A stretch of DNA of 34,895 nt from IMG/VR virus record IMGVR_UViG_3300034198_015348, positions 1 through 34,895 of that record; one strand, written 5' to 3'. This document shows positions 648-34,875 of the stretch, piece after piece. How positions within the stretch are numbered: the stretch's first letter is position 1; every line of letters starts with the position of its first letter. Under the pieces are notes generated by a model, which searched no databases, had not been told where the DNA came from, and worked only from the letters and a program-made list of their open reading frames with translations. Source of the DNA: a virus. Position numbers and translations under genes: made by a program.

Positions 648-655
<8 letters not shown>
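329..655 (+). CDS. small beta-rich fibre-associated protein, 108 aa
   Basis: Ser/Thr/Ala-rich 108-aa protein with alternating hydrophobic residues typical of a beta-sandwich. It resembles the 111-aa protein at 9283-9618 in length, in its early segment on an N-terminal strand leading into a hydrophobic I-V-x-x-x-I stretch, and in an Asn/Ser-rich middle. Proteins of this type commonly sit next to tail-fibre genes in myophages. The last 8 bases overlap the start of the collagen-like fibre gene, so the two are likely translationally coupled. The probable role is a small virion or fibre accessory protein; no biochemical activity can be assigned. Confidence 0.65.

Positions 656-3653
<2,998 letters not shown>

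Positions 3654-6523: not shown

Positions 6524-6524
<1 letters not shown>
6432..6524 (+). CDS. possible 30-aa basic peptide in the fibre intergenic gap
   Basis: The 130-base gap before the second collagen fibre contains an ATG-started 30-codon frame encoding a basic peptide (starts MARIRCKF, ends LLNRGIK). Its TAA overlaps the ATG of the fibre gene as TAATG, the same junction used by many sure genes here. That junction is the main support. There is no strong ribosome site before the ATG, and the peptide matches nothing I know. It could be a leader peptide that couples translation into the fibre gene, or chance. Confidence 0.3.
6470..6475 (+). promoter_or_regulatory. weak -10-like hexamer TATAAT
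   Basis: A perfect TATAAT lies about 50 bases before the second collagen fibre start, in one of the few gaps of over 100 bases. At a 17-base spacing the upstream hexamer is TGCAAA, a poor -35. It may be an internal promoter for the fibre/glycosyltransferase block, or chance in AT-rich DNA. Confidence 0.2.
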
Positions 6525-8167
<1,643 letters not shown>

Positions 8168-30096: not shown

Positions 30097-31032
30097 TTGA
30101 TAGATCCCACACCGTTAACTGACGCGAACTTATCTCTTCGCGCCAGGGGTCTTTATGGCCTATTTGTTGCACATGGCAAAGTTCTGCCTGCTTCTGAAGT
30201 GTACTCACTTGTTCCCGAGGGACGTGACGCTATACGCACAGCCATGAATGAATTGATTTCTGCTGGATACATAACCAAGACCCGTTTTCGTACGAGTGCT
30301 GGACAATATGCTATTGATTATGCAACCGTCAGTGAACCAGTAACGGTAAACCAGGGCCTGGTTAACCGCGGCGGGTTTCCAGGCGATCTATATAGAGGAA
30401 CCGACTATATAGCTAATAGCTCTAAAGTATTAATAGGACTTAATAAATTAAGTCCTATTAACACCTCGGGCAAGCCCGAAATTGAAGAGGAGTATGTAAT
30501 TATGCCTTGGCCAGGATTAGATGAGCCAGAACAACCAAAGGTTAAACGCCAACGTATAGACGACTCAGACTCAGGTGCCGTAGGCAAGATTGATGATCCT
30601 GTGGATAAGCGCGAACTACGTAAGGCCAAGTACAAAAAAGCCCAGTTTGCAGCAGTACCGGAAACCATGCTCCGCAAAGAGAAGCCAGAAGAATCTTGGT
30701 CTACCCCTGACCTAGTGGCCGAGTTCTATGATTTATTCAAGGAATTAGATGACTATGCCCCTAGCCAAGTCAACGCCAAGAGCCTAGCTTCCTGGATTAA
30801 CAAGATGGTAGGCGACGGAGTAGCCAGGAATGCCCTTTTAAGGGCCATGAGGGCCTTTTTCAGCGATCCTCGCTTGACACGTGAGGTTGGCATAGGGCAG
30901 CCTATGTGGCGTAGGTTTATAGCCTATTATCCGACCGTCCACGGGATCTATTCTAAAGACGTTGAAGTAGAGTACGAAGACGACGCATTTCTAGCCCATC
31001 AGGCTAAGATGCTGAAATTATTGGAGGACTAG
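30097..31032 (+). CDS. winged-helix replication initiator-like protein, 311 aa
   Basis: Residues 8-75 form a winged helix-turn-helix: LSLRARGLYGLFVAHGKVLPASEVYSLVPEGRD, then an AIRTAMNELISAGYITKTR recognition helix and wing, as in phage replication initiator/DnaD-like proteins. A linker at about 80-150 follows and encodes the hairpins described under the origin candidate. The C-terminal part, from about 195, is helical (WSTPDLVAEFYDLFKEL, SLASWINKMVGDGVARNALLRAMRAFF), like a protein-interaction domain. It precedes the DnaC-like and DnaB-like genes, so loading the helicase at the origin fits. It starts at TTG because an in-frame TGA lies at 30091-30093 and no other start is nearby; GGAGGG is 12 bases upstream. 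Confidence 0.75.
   Translation: MIDPTPLTDANLSLRARGLYGLFVAHGKVLPASEVYSLVPEGRDAIRTAMNELISAGYITKTRFRTSAGQYAIDYATVSEPVTVNQGLVNRGGFPGDLYRGTDYIANSSKVLIGLNKLSPINTSGKPEIEEEYVIMPWPGLDEPEQPKVKRQRIDDSDSGAVGKIDDPVDKRELRKAKYKKAQFAAVPETMLRKEKPEESWSTPDLVAEFYDLFKELDDYAPSQVNAKSLASWINKMVGDGVARNALLRAMRAFFSDPRLTREVGIGQPMWRRFIAYYPTVHGIYSKDVEVEYEDDAFLAHQAKMLKLLED
30344..30479 (+). other. palindrome cluster inside the initiator gene, candidate origin of replication
   Basis: Within codons for the initiator's linker: a 25-base dyad at 30344-30368 (11 of 12 base pairs match); two CTATATAG palindromes at 30388-30395 and 30405-30412; a perfect 14-bp inverted repeat, 30430-30443 with 30448-30461, around the 4-base loop TAAA; and TCGGG-CAAG-CCCGA at 30466-30479. 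The middle is AT-rich. Direct copies of AACCAG at 30335-30340 and 30349-30354, plus the inverted CTGGTT at 30358-30363, precede them. Phage lambda ori also lies inside its initiator gene O. Origin function is inferred; a regulatory RNA hairpin is possible. Confidence 0.45.
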
Positions 31033-31709
31033 TGTACGACTTACAGGATTTGCGTCCATCTATACGCAGTCAAATAAACGCTGCCAGTATACCCGAGCGG
31101 TTTATAGGTAAAACCTTAGATGACCTAGGTTCCTACCAAGGAGAGGTAAAAGAGTCTGTAGAGACTTGGCTAGATTTAGTGCTTTCCGGCAAGATACTTA
31201 AAGCCAGGGGATCAGCAAAGTGTGGGCTAGGACTTCTACTCGTAGGCAAGCCAGGACACGGGAAGACCACTCTTGCTAGTGTGGTACTGCAGGAAGTCAT
31301 GCGGAAAGCGGACCCAGCACTTTGGGGTTCAACCGAGTCGTTTGCAAAACGTCCAGGTCTTTTTGTAGACTACCCAAAGTTGCTTCGTATTCAACAACGC
31401 TCTTGGAAAGAAGACGGCCCAGAAGCTAGTCTTATGGAAGGAGTTTTTGGGGATGCAGGAAACAACAGCGTAAATATTTTAGTGATAGATGATTTAGGCA
31501 AAGAACATAGGACAGCAACAGGGTGGGCTGAAAACACCTTTGACGCTGTGCTACGCTCACGGTACAACGCAGGTTTACCAACAATCGTTACAACAAATGT
31601 TCCACTAAAAAATTGGGGCGAGGTGTATGGTGAAGCAATGGAAAGTTTTGCTCACGAAGCATTCTTACCAATAAATGTAATATCTATGGAGGGAGATCGT
31701 CGGAAATGA
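31032..31709 (+). CDS. DnaC-like helicase loader ATPase, 225 aa
   Basis: AAA+ ATPase of the DnaC/IstB type: Walker A GKPGHGKT at residues 72-79, Walker B ILVIDDLGKE with Asp153/Asp154, and a sensor-like TTNVPLKNW near residues 188-196. The expected job is loading the DnaB-like helicase encoded downstream, possibly at the palindrome cluster. It starts at GTG in a TAGTG overlap with the initiator; GGAGG at 31023-31027 is 4 bases before the GTG. The stop overlaps the ATG of a 5-codon-longer form of the next gene (ATGA). Length is normal for this family. Confidence 0.88.
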   Translation: MYDLQDLRPSIRSQINAASIPERFIGKTLDDLGSYQGEVKESVETWLDLVLSGKILKARGSAKCGLGLLLVGKPGHGKTTLASVVLQEVMRKADPALWGSTESFAKRPGLFVDYPKLLRIQQRSWKEDGPEASLMEGVFGDAGNNSVNILVIDDLGKEHRTATGWAENTFDAVLRSRYNAGLPTIVTTNVPLKNWGEVYGEAMESFAHEAFLPINVISMEGDRRK

Positions 31710-31720
31710 AGGAGAAATTA

Positions 31721-32008
31721 ATGTTAGATGCTGAATGGCGCACAATACAATTCTTCTTGTCCCCACGCGGGGTTTTTGAAGTTCAAGTAAACACTAATGA
31801 AGAGGGTATTCGCTGTAATTGCCCAGGGTATGAAACACGTAAGATGTGCAAGCATGTACGTCTTGTTGAAACCCGTGCAGATGAAAACAATGGTACTTAC
31901 CCACTTAAAGTTTCTTCTCGCGCAACTTCTAAAGAAACAGAGGCCGCTACTGAGTCTCCAGAATCTTTTAGGAATTTTGTAGTTAAATACGGATACATAG
32001 AGGTTTAG
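31721..32008 (+). CDS. SWIM zinc-finger protein, 95 aa
   Basis: Residues 32-45 contain the SWIM motif C-x-C-x8-C-x-H (Cys32, Cys34, Cys43, His45), a zinc site used for DNA or protein binding, as in SWI2/SNF2, MuDR and Sws1 proteins and small actinophage proteins. The rest is short, with an acidic C-terminus. I choose ATG 31721: AAGGAG at 31709-31714 is spaced 6 bases from it, better than the ATG at 31706 that would overlap the loader stop. Its place between loader and helicase suggests a role in replication or recombination. Confidence 0.78.
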   Translation: MLDAEWRTIQFFLSPRGVFEVQVNTNEEGIRCNCPGYETRKMCKHVRLVETRADENNGTYPLKVSSRATSKETEAATESPESFRNFVVKYGYIEV

Positions 32009-32012
32009 CAAC

Positions 32013-32420
32013 TTGCAGGGAGGGGATTTAAGTAACGAGACGCCAAGGCGTGTTGCAGTATCTGTTGATTGTTTTTTAGATAGAGAGCCCGTATTTAAAA
32101 AAGTATTTGGATTAATCCCACATACTTCTGAAAACGTTACGTACAACCGGGCCATGTTGTCTAGGTTTTGGCGTTATTCAAATGATAATGGTTTAACGCT
32201 TGAGCTAGTAGGTTTTGGGTATTCACAAAAAGAGATGGACGAGATCATGGAAGATCTTGACAACTTGGGTACCAATCCGTTTAGATATGCTAAAGCACAT
32301 AGAGTTGTTGCAGATTTGGTTGCAGAACTTCCTTACAGGAATGAACTACTATGTGTTATTGATATACCGACTCGCGCACTGAGATACGGTAGTAGGTACT
32401 TTGACCTTGGGAGGGTTTAA
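32013..32420 (+). CDS. conserved phage protein of unknown function, 135 aa
   Basis: 135-aa alpha/beta protein: an early VAVSVDCFLD strand, a helical middle rich in acidic residues, and LLCVIDIPTRALRYG near the C-terminus. Paired beta strands ending in Asp could form a nucleotidase- or phosphatase-like site, but I do not recognise a complete motif. TTG start at 32013, with AGAGG about 9 bases upstream; no ATG or GTG start follows soon in frame. Its TAA overlaps the helicase ATG (TAATG), so it is coupled to the replication genes. Confidence 0.6.
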   Translation: MQGGDLSNETPRRVAVSVDCFLDREPVFKKVFGLIPHTSENVTYNRAMLSRFWRYSNDNGLTLELVGFGYSQKEMDEIMEDLDNLGTNPFRYAKAHRVVADLVAELPYRNELLCVIDIPTRALRYGSRYFDLGRV

Positions 32421-33637
32421 TGGCTGCTGATAATGAAGTACGGTTAATTAGCCGGGCTATTCGCACACGCGACATTGCACCTATTCTTGAATATGGACTG
32501 CAAGACGACTGGTTCTACGTAGATGAAAATCGTGCTGTCTGGAAATTTATTCGCCAACACTTTTCAAAGTACAGCGAAGTACCTACTGCAGTAACTGTTA
32601 AAGATAACTTTCCAACATATCGATTACTTAACGTAGAAGATTCTGTTGAGTACCTTCTTGACCAACTTGTTGAGTATCGTCGTCGTCAAAAAGCAATTGA
32701 GATAGTGCAAGATGCTGCTGACGCTATCTCGTCTGGCGATCACCTAACTGCTATCGAATCAATGTCAGCCGGCATTGCTAAGATTATGGACGAGGGCGTA
32801 GGTCAGTCTCACGACATTGACCTAAGTAAAAACCCTATGTCTCGTTTTGATGAGTATGAAGCTGTAAAGACCAGGCCTAATGGTTTGATTGGTATGGCTA
32901 CCGGATTCTCTTTGATTGACCAAGCAACTGCAGGATTACAACCGGGACAAATTATTGTAATCATTGCTCCACCTAAAACGGGTAAGTCTGTAATTGCTTT
33001 ACAGACTGCAGTTAACCTGCATGAAGATGGGTTTGTACCTATGTTTCAATCTTTTGAGATGAGTAGTCGTGAACAGCAAACTCGTCACGATGCAATGCGT
33101 GCAAACATTTCTCATGCCCGGTTAACGCGTGGTGCTCTTAAGACTGATGAAGAAGTTCGTTATGCAAAGTCACTTAAGAGGATGGAAACAATGCACAATT
33201 TTTATCTTACAGATGGTGTTGCTTCTGGAACTTTGTCAGGACTACAGGCTAAGATTGAAAAACTACAGCCTGACGTAGTGTTCGTTGACGGTGTGTACCT
33301 AATGACTGATGAGGTTACGGGAGAGTTAGGAATTTCATTTCTTGCTTTGACTAATATCACTCGTGGGCTTAAGCGCCTTGCTCAGAAAGTGCAAAAGCCA
33401 ATTGTAGTTACCACTCAGGTATTGGAGTCAAAGATGAAAGGCGGCCGTGTTTCGGCTTCATCTATTGGCTACTCTTCATCGTTCTTCCAAGATGCGGATG
33501 TTATTTTGGCTCTTGAACGGCAAGATGCCGAAGACGATTCTTCTCGGTTATTTAGAATTGAAGCAAGTCGTAACTGCGGAAAAGTTGAAGTAGAACTACT
33601 TTGGGATTGGGAAAACGGAAAGTTTCAAGAATACTAG
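32420..33637 (+). CDS. dnaB: DnaB-like replicative helicase, 405 aa
   Basis: RecA-fold, 5'-3' replicative helicase. Residues about 1-120 give the helical N-terminal domain. Walker A APPKTGKS is at 183-190. A FQSFEMSSREQQTRHDAMRA segment follows (H1a-type, with EM typical of DnaB). Walker B is VVFVDGVYLM with Asp290. The helicase motif near TTQVLE (positions about 335-340) and the arginine-containing C-terminal strands are present. It is shorter than bacterial DnaB (about 470 aa), as is usual for phage forms. It probably assembles as a hexamer, loaded by the DnaC-like protein and cooperating with the primase two genes downstream. Confidence 0.9.
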   Translation: MAADNEVRLISRAIRTRDIAPILEYGLQDDWFYVDENRAVWKFIRQHFSKYSEVPTAVTVKDNFPTYRLLNVEDSVEYLLDQLVEYRRRQKAIEIVQDAADAISSGDHLTAIESMSAGIAKIMDEGVGQSHDIDLSKNPMSRFDEYEAVKTRPNGLIGMATGFSLIDQATAGLQPGQIIVIIAPPKTGKSVIALQTAVNLHEDGFVPMFQSFEMSSREQQTRHDAMRANISHARLTRGALKTDEEVRYAKSLKRMETMHNFYLTDGVASGTLSGLQAKIEKLQPDVVFVDGVYLMTDEVTGELGISFLALTNITRGLKRLAQKVQKPIVVTTQVLESKMKGGRVSASSIGYSSSFFQDADVILALERQDAEDDSSRLFRIEASRNCGKVEVELLWDWENGKFQEY

Positions 33638-33646
33638 GAGGGGAAC

Positions 33647-33895
33647 ATGGACTTTGGTCCAAATTTTGAGGGAAAGCAAGCTTGCTTAAAAGTTGATGCG
33701 GATATCTTTTTTCCAAATAACGCAGATCGTGCAGGACTTGTTAATGCAAAAGCTATTTGTGCAAGCTGTGAGGTTAGTATTCCTTGTTTAGAATACGCTG
33801 TGCGCCACCCAAGTCTTGATGGCATTTGGGGAGGAACAACTCCTCGTCAACGGGAATCTATACGTTCACGTATGCGCAAGGAAAAGGTATACTAA
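33647..33895 (+). CDS. whiB: WhiB-family iron-sulphur regulator, 82 aa
   Basis: Four cysteines with WhiB spacing: Cys13, Cys38, Cys41, Cys47 (C-x24-C-x2-C-x5-C), which bind a 4Fe-4S cluster. The GIWGG turn is at 59-63, followed by a basic C-terminal helix (RQRESIRSRMRKEK) that contacts DNA. WhiB proteins bind the sigma factor region 4 and reprogramme transcription; phage copies such as WhiB of TM4 inhibit host WhiB2. It lies between helicase and primase genes, so it is expressed with the replication operon. GGAGGGG 6 bases upstream is a strong ribosome site, and the stop overlaps the primase ATG. Confidence 0.93.
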   Translation: MDFGPNFEGKQACLKVDADIFFPNNADRAGLVNAKAICASCEVSIPCLEYAVRHPSLDGIWGGTTPRQRESIRSRMRKEKVY

Positions 33896-34875
33896 TGATT
33901 TTTAAAGACGGTGAAGTAGATCAAGTACTACTTAAATTAGATGTTTATGTAGAACGCGAACGTGGATCAGAGCGTATTGCTTTGTGTCCAGGTCACGAGT
34001 TACGTACAGGTCGTAAAGATGAAAACCCTTCTTGGTCAATCAACATTGACACAGGTGTGCATCATTGTTTTTCCTGTAACTACAAAGGCAACATCCTTAC
34101 CCTTATTGCAGAACAACTAGAGTTTCTTACAGATTGGGGTCGTTTAGACCTTGATGCTGCAAAACATTGGCTACGCACCAACTCAGAGGTTGATTTAGAG
34201 TTAATCTCTAAGCAAATGTCAGAGGTACGTGACTCCTACATCTCTATACCTAAACCAGTAGAAATGAGCGAAGCACGCTTAGCTTTGTATGTAGACCCAC
34301 CAGACTGGGCATTAAAAGCTAGAGACATATCTATTCCTTCGGCACTTAAGTACGGGGTTCGTTGGGATAAGGATCTTAATTCTTGGATTCTTCCTATTCG
34401 TAATCCAGATACTAAAAAACTAATTGGTTGGCAAGAAAAAGGACAGTTAAGCCGTCACTTTAAAAACCGCCCTACCGGTGTTCAAAAAAGTTCTACGTTG
34501 TTTGGCATAGACGCTTGGAATGGTGGGCAGATGATTCTGGTAGAAAGCCCACTAGACGCCGTACGCCTCGACTCATTAGGATTTAAGGGAGCAGTGGCTT
34601 GCTACGGGGCGCATTTAAGTCCGGCACAACTTGAGTTATTGTGCTCAGCAGATTCTCTCATCATTGCTTTTGATAATCCAAGCATAGACACAGCAGGGTG
34701 TGCTGGAGCAATGCATATGCTGGAGTCTAGTCGTCGTCGTGGAGTTGAGTGCTGGTTCTTTAACTACAGCAATACCTCCGCAAAAGATATTGGCGATATG
34801 TCGTCAGATGAGGTAACGTTTGGTATATCAAACGCGCGTCATTGTGTTTTGGGTAAAGCCGCTATTCTTTCGTGA
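33895..34875 (+). CDS. dnaG: DnaG-type primase with CHC2 zinc finger and TOPRIM domain, 326 aa
   Basis: Makes RNA primers at the fork. N-terminal zinc-binding motif: Cys31-x2-His34 ... Cys58-x2-Cys61. A TOPRIM domain follows: Glu217 in ILVESPLDA, then AFDNPSIDTAG with Asp260 and Asp265, a DNP-x-x-D variant of the usual D-x-D. The middle has SILPIRNP and IGWQEKG-type motifs typical of phage primases. It lacks the bacterial DnaG helicase-binding domain, being only 326 aa. I choose the ATG at 33895, which overlaps the WhiB stop (TAATG), over the frame-open ATG at 33826 inside the whiB gene. Confidence 0.88.
   Translation: MIFKDGEVDQVLLKLDVYVERERGSERIALCPGHELRTGRKDENPSWSINIDTGVHHCFSCNYKGNILTLIAEQLEFLTDWGRLDLDAAKHWLRTNSEVDLELISKQMSEVRDSYISIPKPVEMSEARLALYVDPPDWALKARDISIPSALKYGVRWDKDLNSWILPIRNPDTKKLIGWQEKGQLSRHFKNRPTGVQKSSTLFGIDAWNGGQMILVESPLDAVRLDSLGFKGAVACYGAHLSPAQLELLCSADSLIIAFDNPSIDTAGCAGAMHMLESSRRRGVECWFFNYSNTSAKDIGDMSSDEVTFGISNARHCVLGKAAILS

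Follow-up and report, generated by a model that had tools for sequence, protein, structure and literature searches.

In a few model phages the replication origin is known to lie within the initiator gene, and such origins have been described by their iterons. In SPP1, oriL is found within gene 38, and the gp38 replisome organizer is followed by the gp39 loader and the gp40 DnaB-type helicase (PMC6316719). In lambdoid and Stx phages, ori occupies the middle of gene O and combines an AT-rich tract with iterons, each of which is an inverted repeat (PMC7466680). Work with other replicons has shown that initiators can also be made in shorter, in-frame forms, including R6K pi30.5, pIGRK RepR', phiX174 A* and M13 pX, which usually modulate initiation (PMC6854812). 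Outside of replication, the attC sites of integrons are recognised in a folded form, as single-stranded or cruciform DNA (PMC8946536).

The locus described here shares with SPP1 (PMC6316719) the placement of a candidate origin within the initiator gene, the initiator, loader and helicase order (38-39-40) and an AT-rich unwinding region, but SPP1 has direct repeats where this locus has, as its main conserved feature, a long DNA hairpin and a GC-rich hairpin. As in lambda ori (PMC7466680), the element is found mid-gene together with an AT-rich tract, which bears out the likeness in position that the initial annotation had drawn to gene O. Lambdoids, however, carry four to six 19-bp iterons, whereas here there is one palindrome with variable arms of 13-18 bp and a fixed loop, and the locus also differs from lambda ori in having a further hairpin as well as an internal start. 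Given the gene order and oriL of SPP1 and the gene O of lambdoids, an origin in the initiator gene would be the simplest account of the element. Much like R6K, pIGRK, phiX174 and M13, the locus is predicted to encode a shorter Rep-type protein in the same frame from an internal start (PMC6854812); RepR' still binds origin DNA, whereas the predicted short form here would be entirely without the winged-helix DNA-binding domain. With attC it would share the recognition of folded DNA and the keeping of structure over sequence, although attC serves recombination and has extrahelical bases, and no integrase or cassette occurs here.

The Replication Module and Its Initiator

The sequence analyzed (the window) is a whole IMG/VR record, linear and 34,895 bases long, with collagen-like and tail genes on its left side and a replication module on its right. 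The module runs from an initiator-like gene through a DnaC-like loader, a SWIM protein, a DnaB-like helicase and WhiB to a primase, and profile matches agree with the earlier naming of the genes downstream of the initiator as a helicase loader and then a DnaB helicase. Its principal genes are:

30097..31032, plus strand, replication initiator-like gene, 311 aa (winged helix, linker, helical domain; weak PHROG matches)
31032..31709, plus strand, DnaC-like helicase loader (phrog_50, E 1.4e-29)
32420..33637, plus strand, DnaB-like replicative helicase (PF03796, E 1.3e-29)
33826..34875, plus strand, DnaG-like primase (open frame from 33826; true start possibly further in)

The small protein between the loader and helicase genes (31706-32008) contains a SWIM zinc finger, and the WhiB-like gene at 33647-33895 marks an actinobacterium as the host. 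The tail genes include long proteins of collagen-like Gly-Pro-Thr repeats, at 648-3653 and 6524-8167.

The 311-aa protein probably starts DNA copying, a call based on gene order and on weak profile matches (PHROG replication initiation, O-like and DnaD-like families), and the placement of the element inside an initiator gene depends on that same assignment. AlphaFold predicts a winged helix at residues 1-79 and a helical C-terminal domain at 171-311, joined by a disordered linker (80-167) with a pLDDT of ~31-46 across most of its length. The element region falls in this linker, where the initial annotation had located the dyads. A fold search of the PDB with the initiator gave no match below E 0.1, the weak ones being winged helices and the DnaD N-terminus.

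No relative was found when viral contigs were searched directly with the window initiator. Relatives were recovered via the loader and helicase genes, and an initiator alignment built from those matches then recovered relatives in its turn; others came from a loader alignment led by a distant sequence, L112. In the genome contigs database, the initiator alignment found no relative. In the relatives, the loader is preceded by a gene homologous to the window initiator, with 37-60% identity, while isolated phages reach just ~30-40% identity, mostly in the N-terminal part, and a different gene precedes the loader of Streptomyces phage BRock. The element occurs in a large group of uncultivated lake (freshwater) phages. 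Because these relatives are uncultivated contigs, many with overlapping content, de-duplicated sets and a tree were used against pseudo-replication.

Dyads, Repeats and DNA-Level Constraint

All five dyads that had been placed at 30335-30480 are present in the sequence, and two of them (dyads 4 and 5, here hairpins A and B) are conserved as structures across relatives. The features of the element and of the internal start that follows it are:

30344-30368, no strand, 25-base palindrome CGGTAAACCAGGGCCTGGTTAACCG (11/12 pairs)
30352..30513, no strand, synonymous-codon conservation island, codons 86-139 (candidate origin, DNA-level constrained element)
30370..30395, no strand, box counterpart, conserved GACGGATTTTCAGGC..CTATACAT, with the first CTATATAG (from the element listing and enriched hexamers)
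30388-30395 and 30405-30412, no strand, two CTATATAG sites (dyads 2 and 3)
30396..30429, no strand, AT-rich repeat tract with the second CTATATAG (iteron-like ACTAGT/TACTAGT/CTAATAG repeats here in relatives)
30430..30461, no strand, hairpin A, TTAATAGGACTTAA-TAAA-TTAAGTCCTATTAA (14 bp and a 4-nt loop, or 15 bp and a 2-nt loop)
30466..30479, no strand, hairpin B, TCGGGCAAGCCCGA, GC-rich, 5-6 bp (other complementary stems in relatives)
30487..30492, plus strand, Shine-Dalgarno GAGGAG of the internal start (9-nt spacing; -8.5 kcal/mol)
30502..31032, plus strand, predicted second in-frame protein, 176 aa, C-terminal domain alone (internal ATG, residue 136)

The CAGGCCTG core of the 25-base palindrome is retained only in the nearest clade, while both CTATATAG sites correspond to a conserved CTATAYA box and AT-rich repeat tract in relatives. 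No other perfect stem in the window is as long as hairpin A, which can be extended to 30427-30464 at the cost of one mismatch; the next longest has 10 bp. In 60 dinucleotide shuffles of the whole window, the longest stem was at most 11 bp in 59 and 13 bp in one, so that none reached 14 bp, in line with the earlier claim of a stem unlikely to arise by chance. The DNA fold of 30420-30482 has a predicted energy of -15.0 kcal/mol (z = -7.5).

Constraint at the DNA level, independent of the protein sequence, is seen in both synonymous conservation and covariation. The ratio of observed to expected codon identity is ~1.6-2.3 in codons 86-139 vs ~1.0-1.4 elsewhere in the gene, and, since synonymous constraint is confined to these codons, the element is taken to span ~30350-30515. 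Both the constraint and the AT-rich repeats reach ~75 nt upstream of the hairpins. In the relatives, ACTAGT is enriched 173-fold and CTAATA 117-fold upstream of hairpin A, and AT content climbs to ~0.7 over the repeat tract and hairpin A, giving an AT-rich tract of the kind unwound in lambda or SPP1 type origins. ACTAGT-type repeats also occur elsewhere in six near-complete relatives (12-29 copies), and the short ACTAGT/CTAATAG repeats, though enriched, do not form a regular array like the 23-bp repeats of L115 and L116 described below. No unambiguous iteron array or DnaA boxes were recognised at the element, internal promoters and terminators were at chance level, and nothing like an intrinsic terminator (a GC-rich stem with a T run) lies at the hairpins.

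Conservation of the Hairpins as DNA

Hairpin A is found in the same place, ~540-620 bp before the loader start, in 64 distinct full-length initiator genes; some members have one or two mismatches, and all tabulated full-length genes retain the hairpin. At least 27 different stem sequences occur among the relatives. Across the inner 13 bp of 27 distinct stems, 96.6% of cells pair, vs 64% in shuffles and 30-39% in slid-partner controls; 12 of the 13 pairs change on both sides, with 108 cells double-changed, and no cell shows a one-sided (G.U) change. Parsimony on a tree built without the linker gave 58 pair changes, 9 of them with mismatch states, and therefore at least 49 that went directly from one Watson-Crick pair to another. 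Compensatory changes of this kind had been proposed as a check on the origin, and phages that kept the protein but lost the stems as the case against it; what emerged was the reverse, with stems retained and sequence altered.

RNA helices evolve via G.U pairs, while a DNA palindrome or hairpin does not. Among 832 cells of hairpin A, there are 0 G.T pairs and 5 A.C pairs, and the lack of G.T among many compensatory changes points to conservation of hairpin A as a DNA palindrome or hairpin rather than as plus-strand RNA. The covariation with G-U pairs that would denote a structured RNA element was likewise lacking in the 27 stems and 832 cells, and no Rfam family matches the element.

The same pattern bears on two other explanations. 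One is that the palindrome is a double-stranded operator or other dimeric protein site, serving autoregulation by the initiator or a separate regulator, rather than an origin. A perfectly symmetric double-stranded site also covaries without G.T pairs, and the initiator does have a winged-helix domain; however, the site lies ~330 bp inside the gene with no nearby promoter above chance, its arms of 13-18 bp vary freely while the central loop bases stay (dimer sites usually keep their arms), and it travels with hairpin B, all of which makes this account quite unlikely. The other is that perfect stems are maintained by a mutational process, with little function. In template switching, which corrects quasi-palindromes, arms become identical without selection and no G.T pairs are left. 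Conservation of the loop and position, of hairpin B and of wider synonymous sites, along with a single copy per genome, runs against such a process, as does the retention of the hairpin in all tabulated full-length genes where loss by drift would be expected to be common, and we consider it very improbable.

The loop of hairpin A is TAAC in 45 and TAC in 18 of the 64 genes, closed by C-G (C[TAAC]G or C[TAC]G), and that of the window, A[TAAA]T, is exceptional. Outlying members follow the same plan with other loops or stems, including 17 bp with a TAGC loop in L328 and 10 bp with TAC in L355. The triloop class corresponds to GTACTACGTAC, which contains the TACTACG found in the hairpin loop of the pMV158 rolling-circle nick site, and a nick site of that type was therefore considered. 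TACTACG is missing from the TAAC class (45/64) and from the window, though, and the phages encode a loader, DnaB helicase and primase. As for a HUH endonuclease, the Rep_OBD profile (PF01719) was unmatched in six near-complete relatives and an HxH motif was absent among the conserved initiator residues. A rolling-circle origin was consequently rejected as having hardly any likelihood.

Hairpin B follows at 13-18 nt past the loop of hairpin A in the relatives, where 17 distinct complementary stems occur among 36 representatives and TGC is the commonest loop. An exact-motif search blind to gene context returned 84 hairpin-B stretches, of which 82 follow hairpin A in the initiator gene and the two exceptions lack hairpin A. 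A hairpin with a C[TNAC/TNC]G loop and at least 7 bp in its arms occurs once and only once in each of the six near-complete relatives (94-102 kb), always at the initiator site. Compensatory change, the synonymous island and one copy per genome together argue that the stems are under selection as DNA.

A Predicted Internal Translation Start

Directly past the hairpins is a conserved in-frame start that the initial annotation had missed and that would make the C-terminal domain alone, since residue 136 falls within the disordered linker of the AlphaFold model. In 57 of the 64 genes this start is ATG and in the other 7 it is GTG, with a conserved Trp after it. The median Shine-Dalgarno energy in the relatives is -8.85 kcal/mol vs -1.9 at other codons and -10.9 at the genes' own starts, and when the other long genes of the phages were surveyed, 1.1% of their internal in-frame ATG/GTG codons (n = 1,866) reached -8 or better. 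A conserved internal start with a ribosome-binding site is the arrangement of an initiator gene with two products.

This start raises the chief rival to an origin, namely that the hairpins act in the mRNA to insulate or regulate the internal ribosome-binding site for the C-terminal protein. Hairpins A and B do end ~8-40 nt upstream of the conserved Shine-Dalgarno and in-frame ATG/GTG, the predicted RNA fold is strong (z -7.7), and the 28%-identical, GC-rich L112 repeats the order of two tandem hairpins, Shine-Dalgarno and ATG. Nevertheless, this role is weakened by the complete lack of G.U pairs amid so many compensatory changes, unlike RNA helices, by constraint and AT-rich repeats that extend well upstream of the hairpins and by the absence of an Rfam match, and we regard it as unlikely.

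Distant Relatives

L112 (6737-8017) is from a GC-rich phage, with an initiator ~28% identical to that of the window. Its linker contains a pair of hairpins in tandem, GGAAGAAGAG..CTCTTCTTCC and CTCGCCG-CAGG-CGGCGAG, and past them come GAAGGAG and an ATG in frame. The layout matches that of the window despite the great distance, but it is seen in a single sequence; a search with its own initiator returns L112 alone, with no close relatives. In L115 (3419-3510) and L116 (8225-8316), the linker of the gene before the loader has 23-bp palindromic iterons of the GAAGGGACACCCGTGTCCCC type, followed by an internal GTG with a Shine-Dalgarno, an arrangement that resembles, in these distant relatives, an iteron origin of the classical kind. 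The strong internal start thus recurs past the hairpins or iterons of L112 and L115/L116, and this suggests that the pairing of element and internal start may be old. Two perfect 10-bp hairpins, CCGGCGCCGG.. and CCGTAACTGC.., also occur in the linker part of the HTH (initiator) gene of Arthrobacter phage Wheelbite (gene 84; L301, locus 2438-3316), while no stems of at least 9 bp were found in the initiator genes of Cinna, TPELB_ph1, Clawz and REQ2.

GC Skew

A switch in GC skew had been put forward as a check on the origin. Raw skew does rise sharply at the initiator gene in six of six near-complete relatives, and the detrended cumulative minimum falls -335, +30 and +268 bp from the gene start in three circular relatives with terminal overlaps. 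At four-fold degenerate sites of co-oriented genes, however, there is no switch (pooled -0.12 before, and -0.10 to -0.25 from 1 kb after), so the raw switch reflects gene content or coding composition, and skew counts neither for an origin nor against one. The vanishing switch in these six ~100-kb relatives (G001-G011) calls for caution wherever phage origins are assigned from skew. G010 has a perfect 20-bp stem, CAAACAATCCTTAACTTAAA..TTTAAGTTAAGGATTGTTTG, at 88654-88702 (numbered in the initiator-forward orientation), beside the point where its cumulative raw skew is highest.

A Candidate Origin Built on Folded DNA

Considering these results, we think it fairly probable that the element at ~30350-30515 is an origin of theta-type replication that lies within the initiator gene. 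The earlier proposal of an origin here keeps the parts that concern stems under selection as DNA, a single copy and gene order, and loses the part that concerned GC skew. The best reading would have the origin built on folded DNA rather than on classical iterons. Integron attC sites offer a parallel in that their structure is retained while their sequence varies.

Origin function, initiator binding, hairpin extrusion and a role for the short protein are what we infer from sequence. Under the mechanism we propose, the initiator would use its N-terminal winged helix to bind the GGNTTTTCAGGC/CTATA box as well as the AT-rich repeats, and the bound protein would help melt a tract of ~80 bp. In the unwound or supercoiled DNA, hairpin A, with its conserved loop, and the GC-rich hairpin B could then fold, marking or holding open a loading place for the loader and DnaB-like helicase and perhaps a start for primase too. 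The internal start just past the hairpins would yield the C-terminal domain without the winged helix, and this short protein could limit initiation by competing for the loader or helicase, or it could help loading. It is conceivable, and we propose it only tentatively, that the locus represents a folded-DNA class of phage origin, in which a tailed phage that replicates by the theta mode joins a loop-specific hairpin with a nearly free stem, and a GC-rich hairpin beside it, to an internal start for a short initiator devoid of DNA binding, such that origin and copy control share ~165 bp of a single gene.

What a widespread group of uncultivated freshwater actinophages keeps here is a fold of the DNA and not its sequence, and dozens of compensatory changes have been accommodated within a coding gene. 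If the element is a true origin, it would provide a sequence signature for locating origins in such genomes, a plain example of a replication site that is recognised in its folded form, and a two-protein control circuit open to direct testing.
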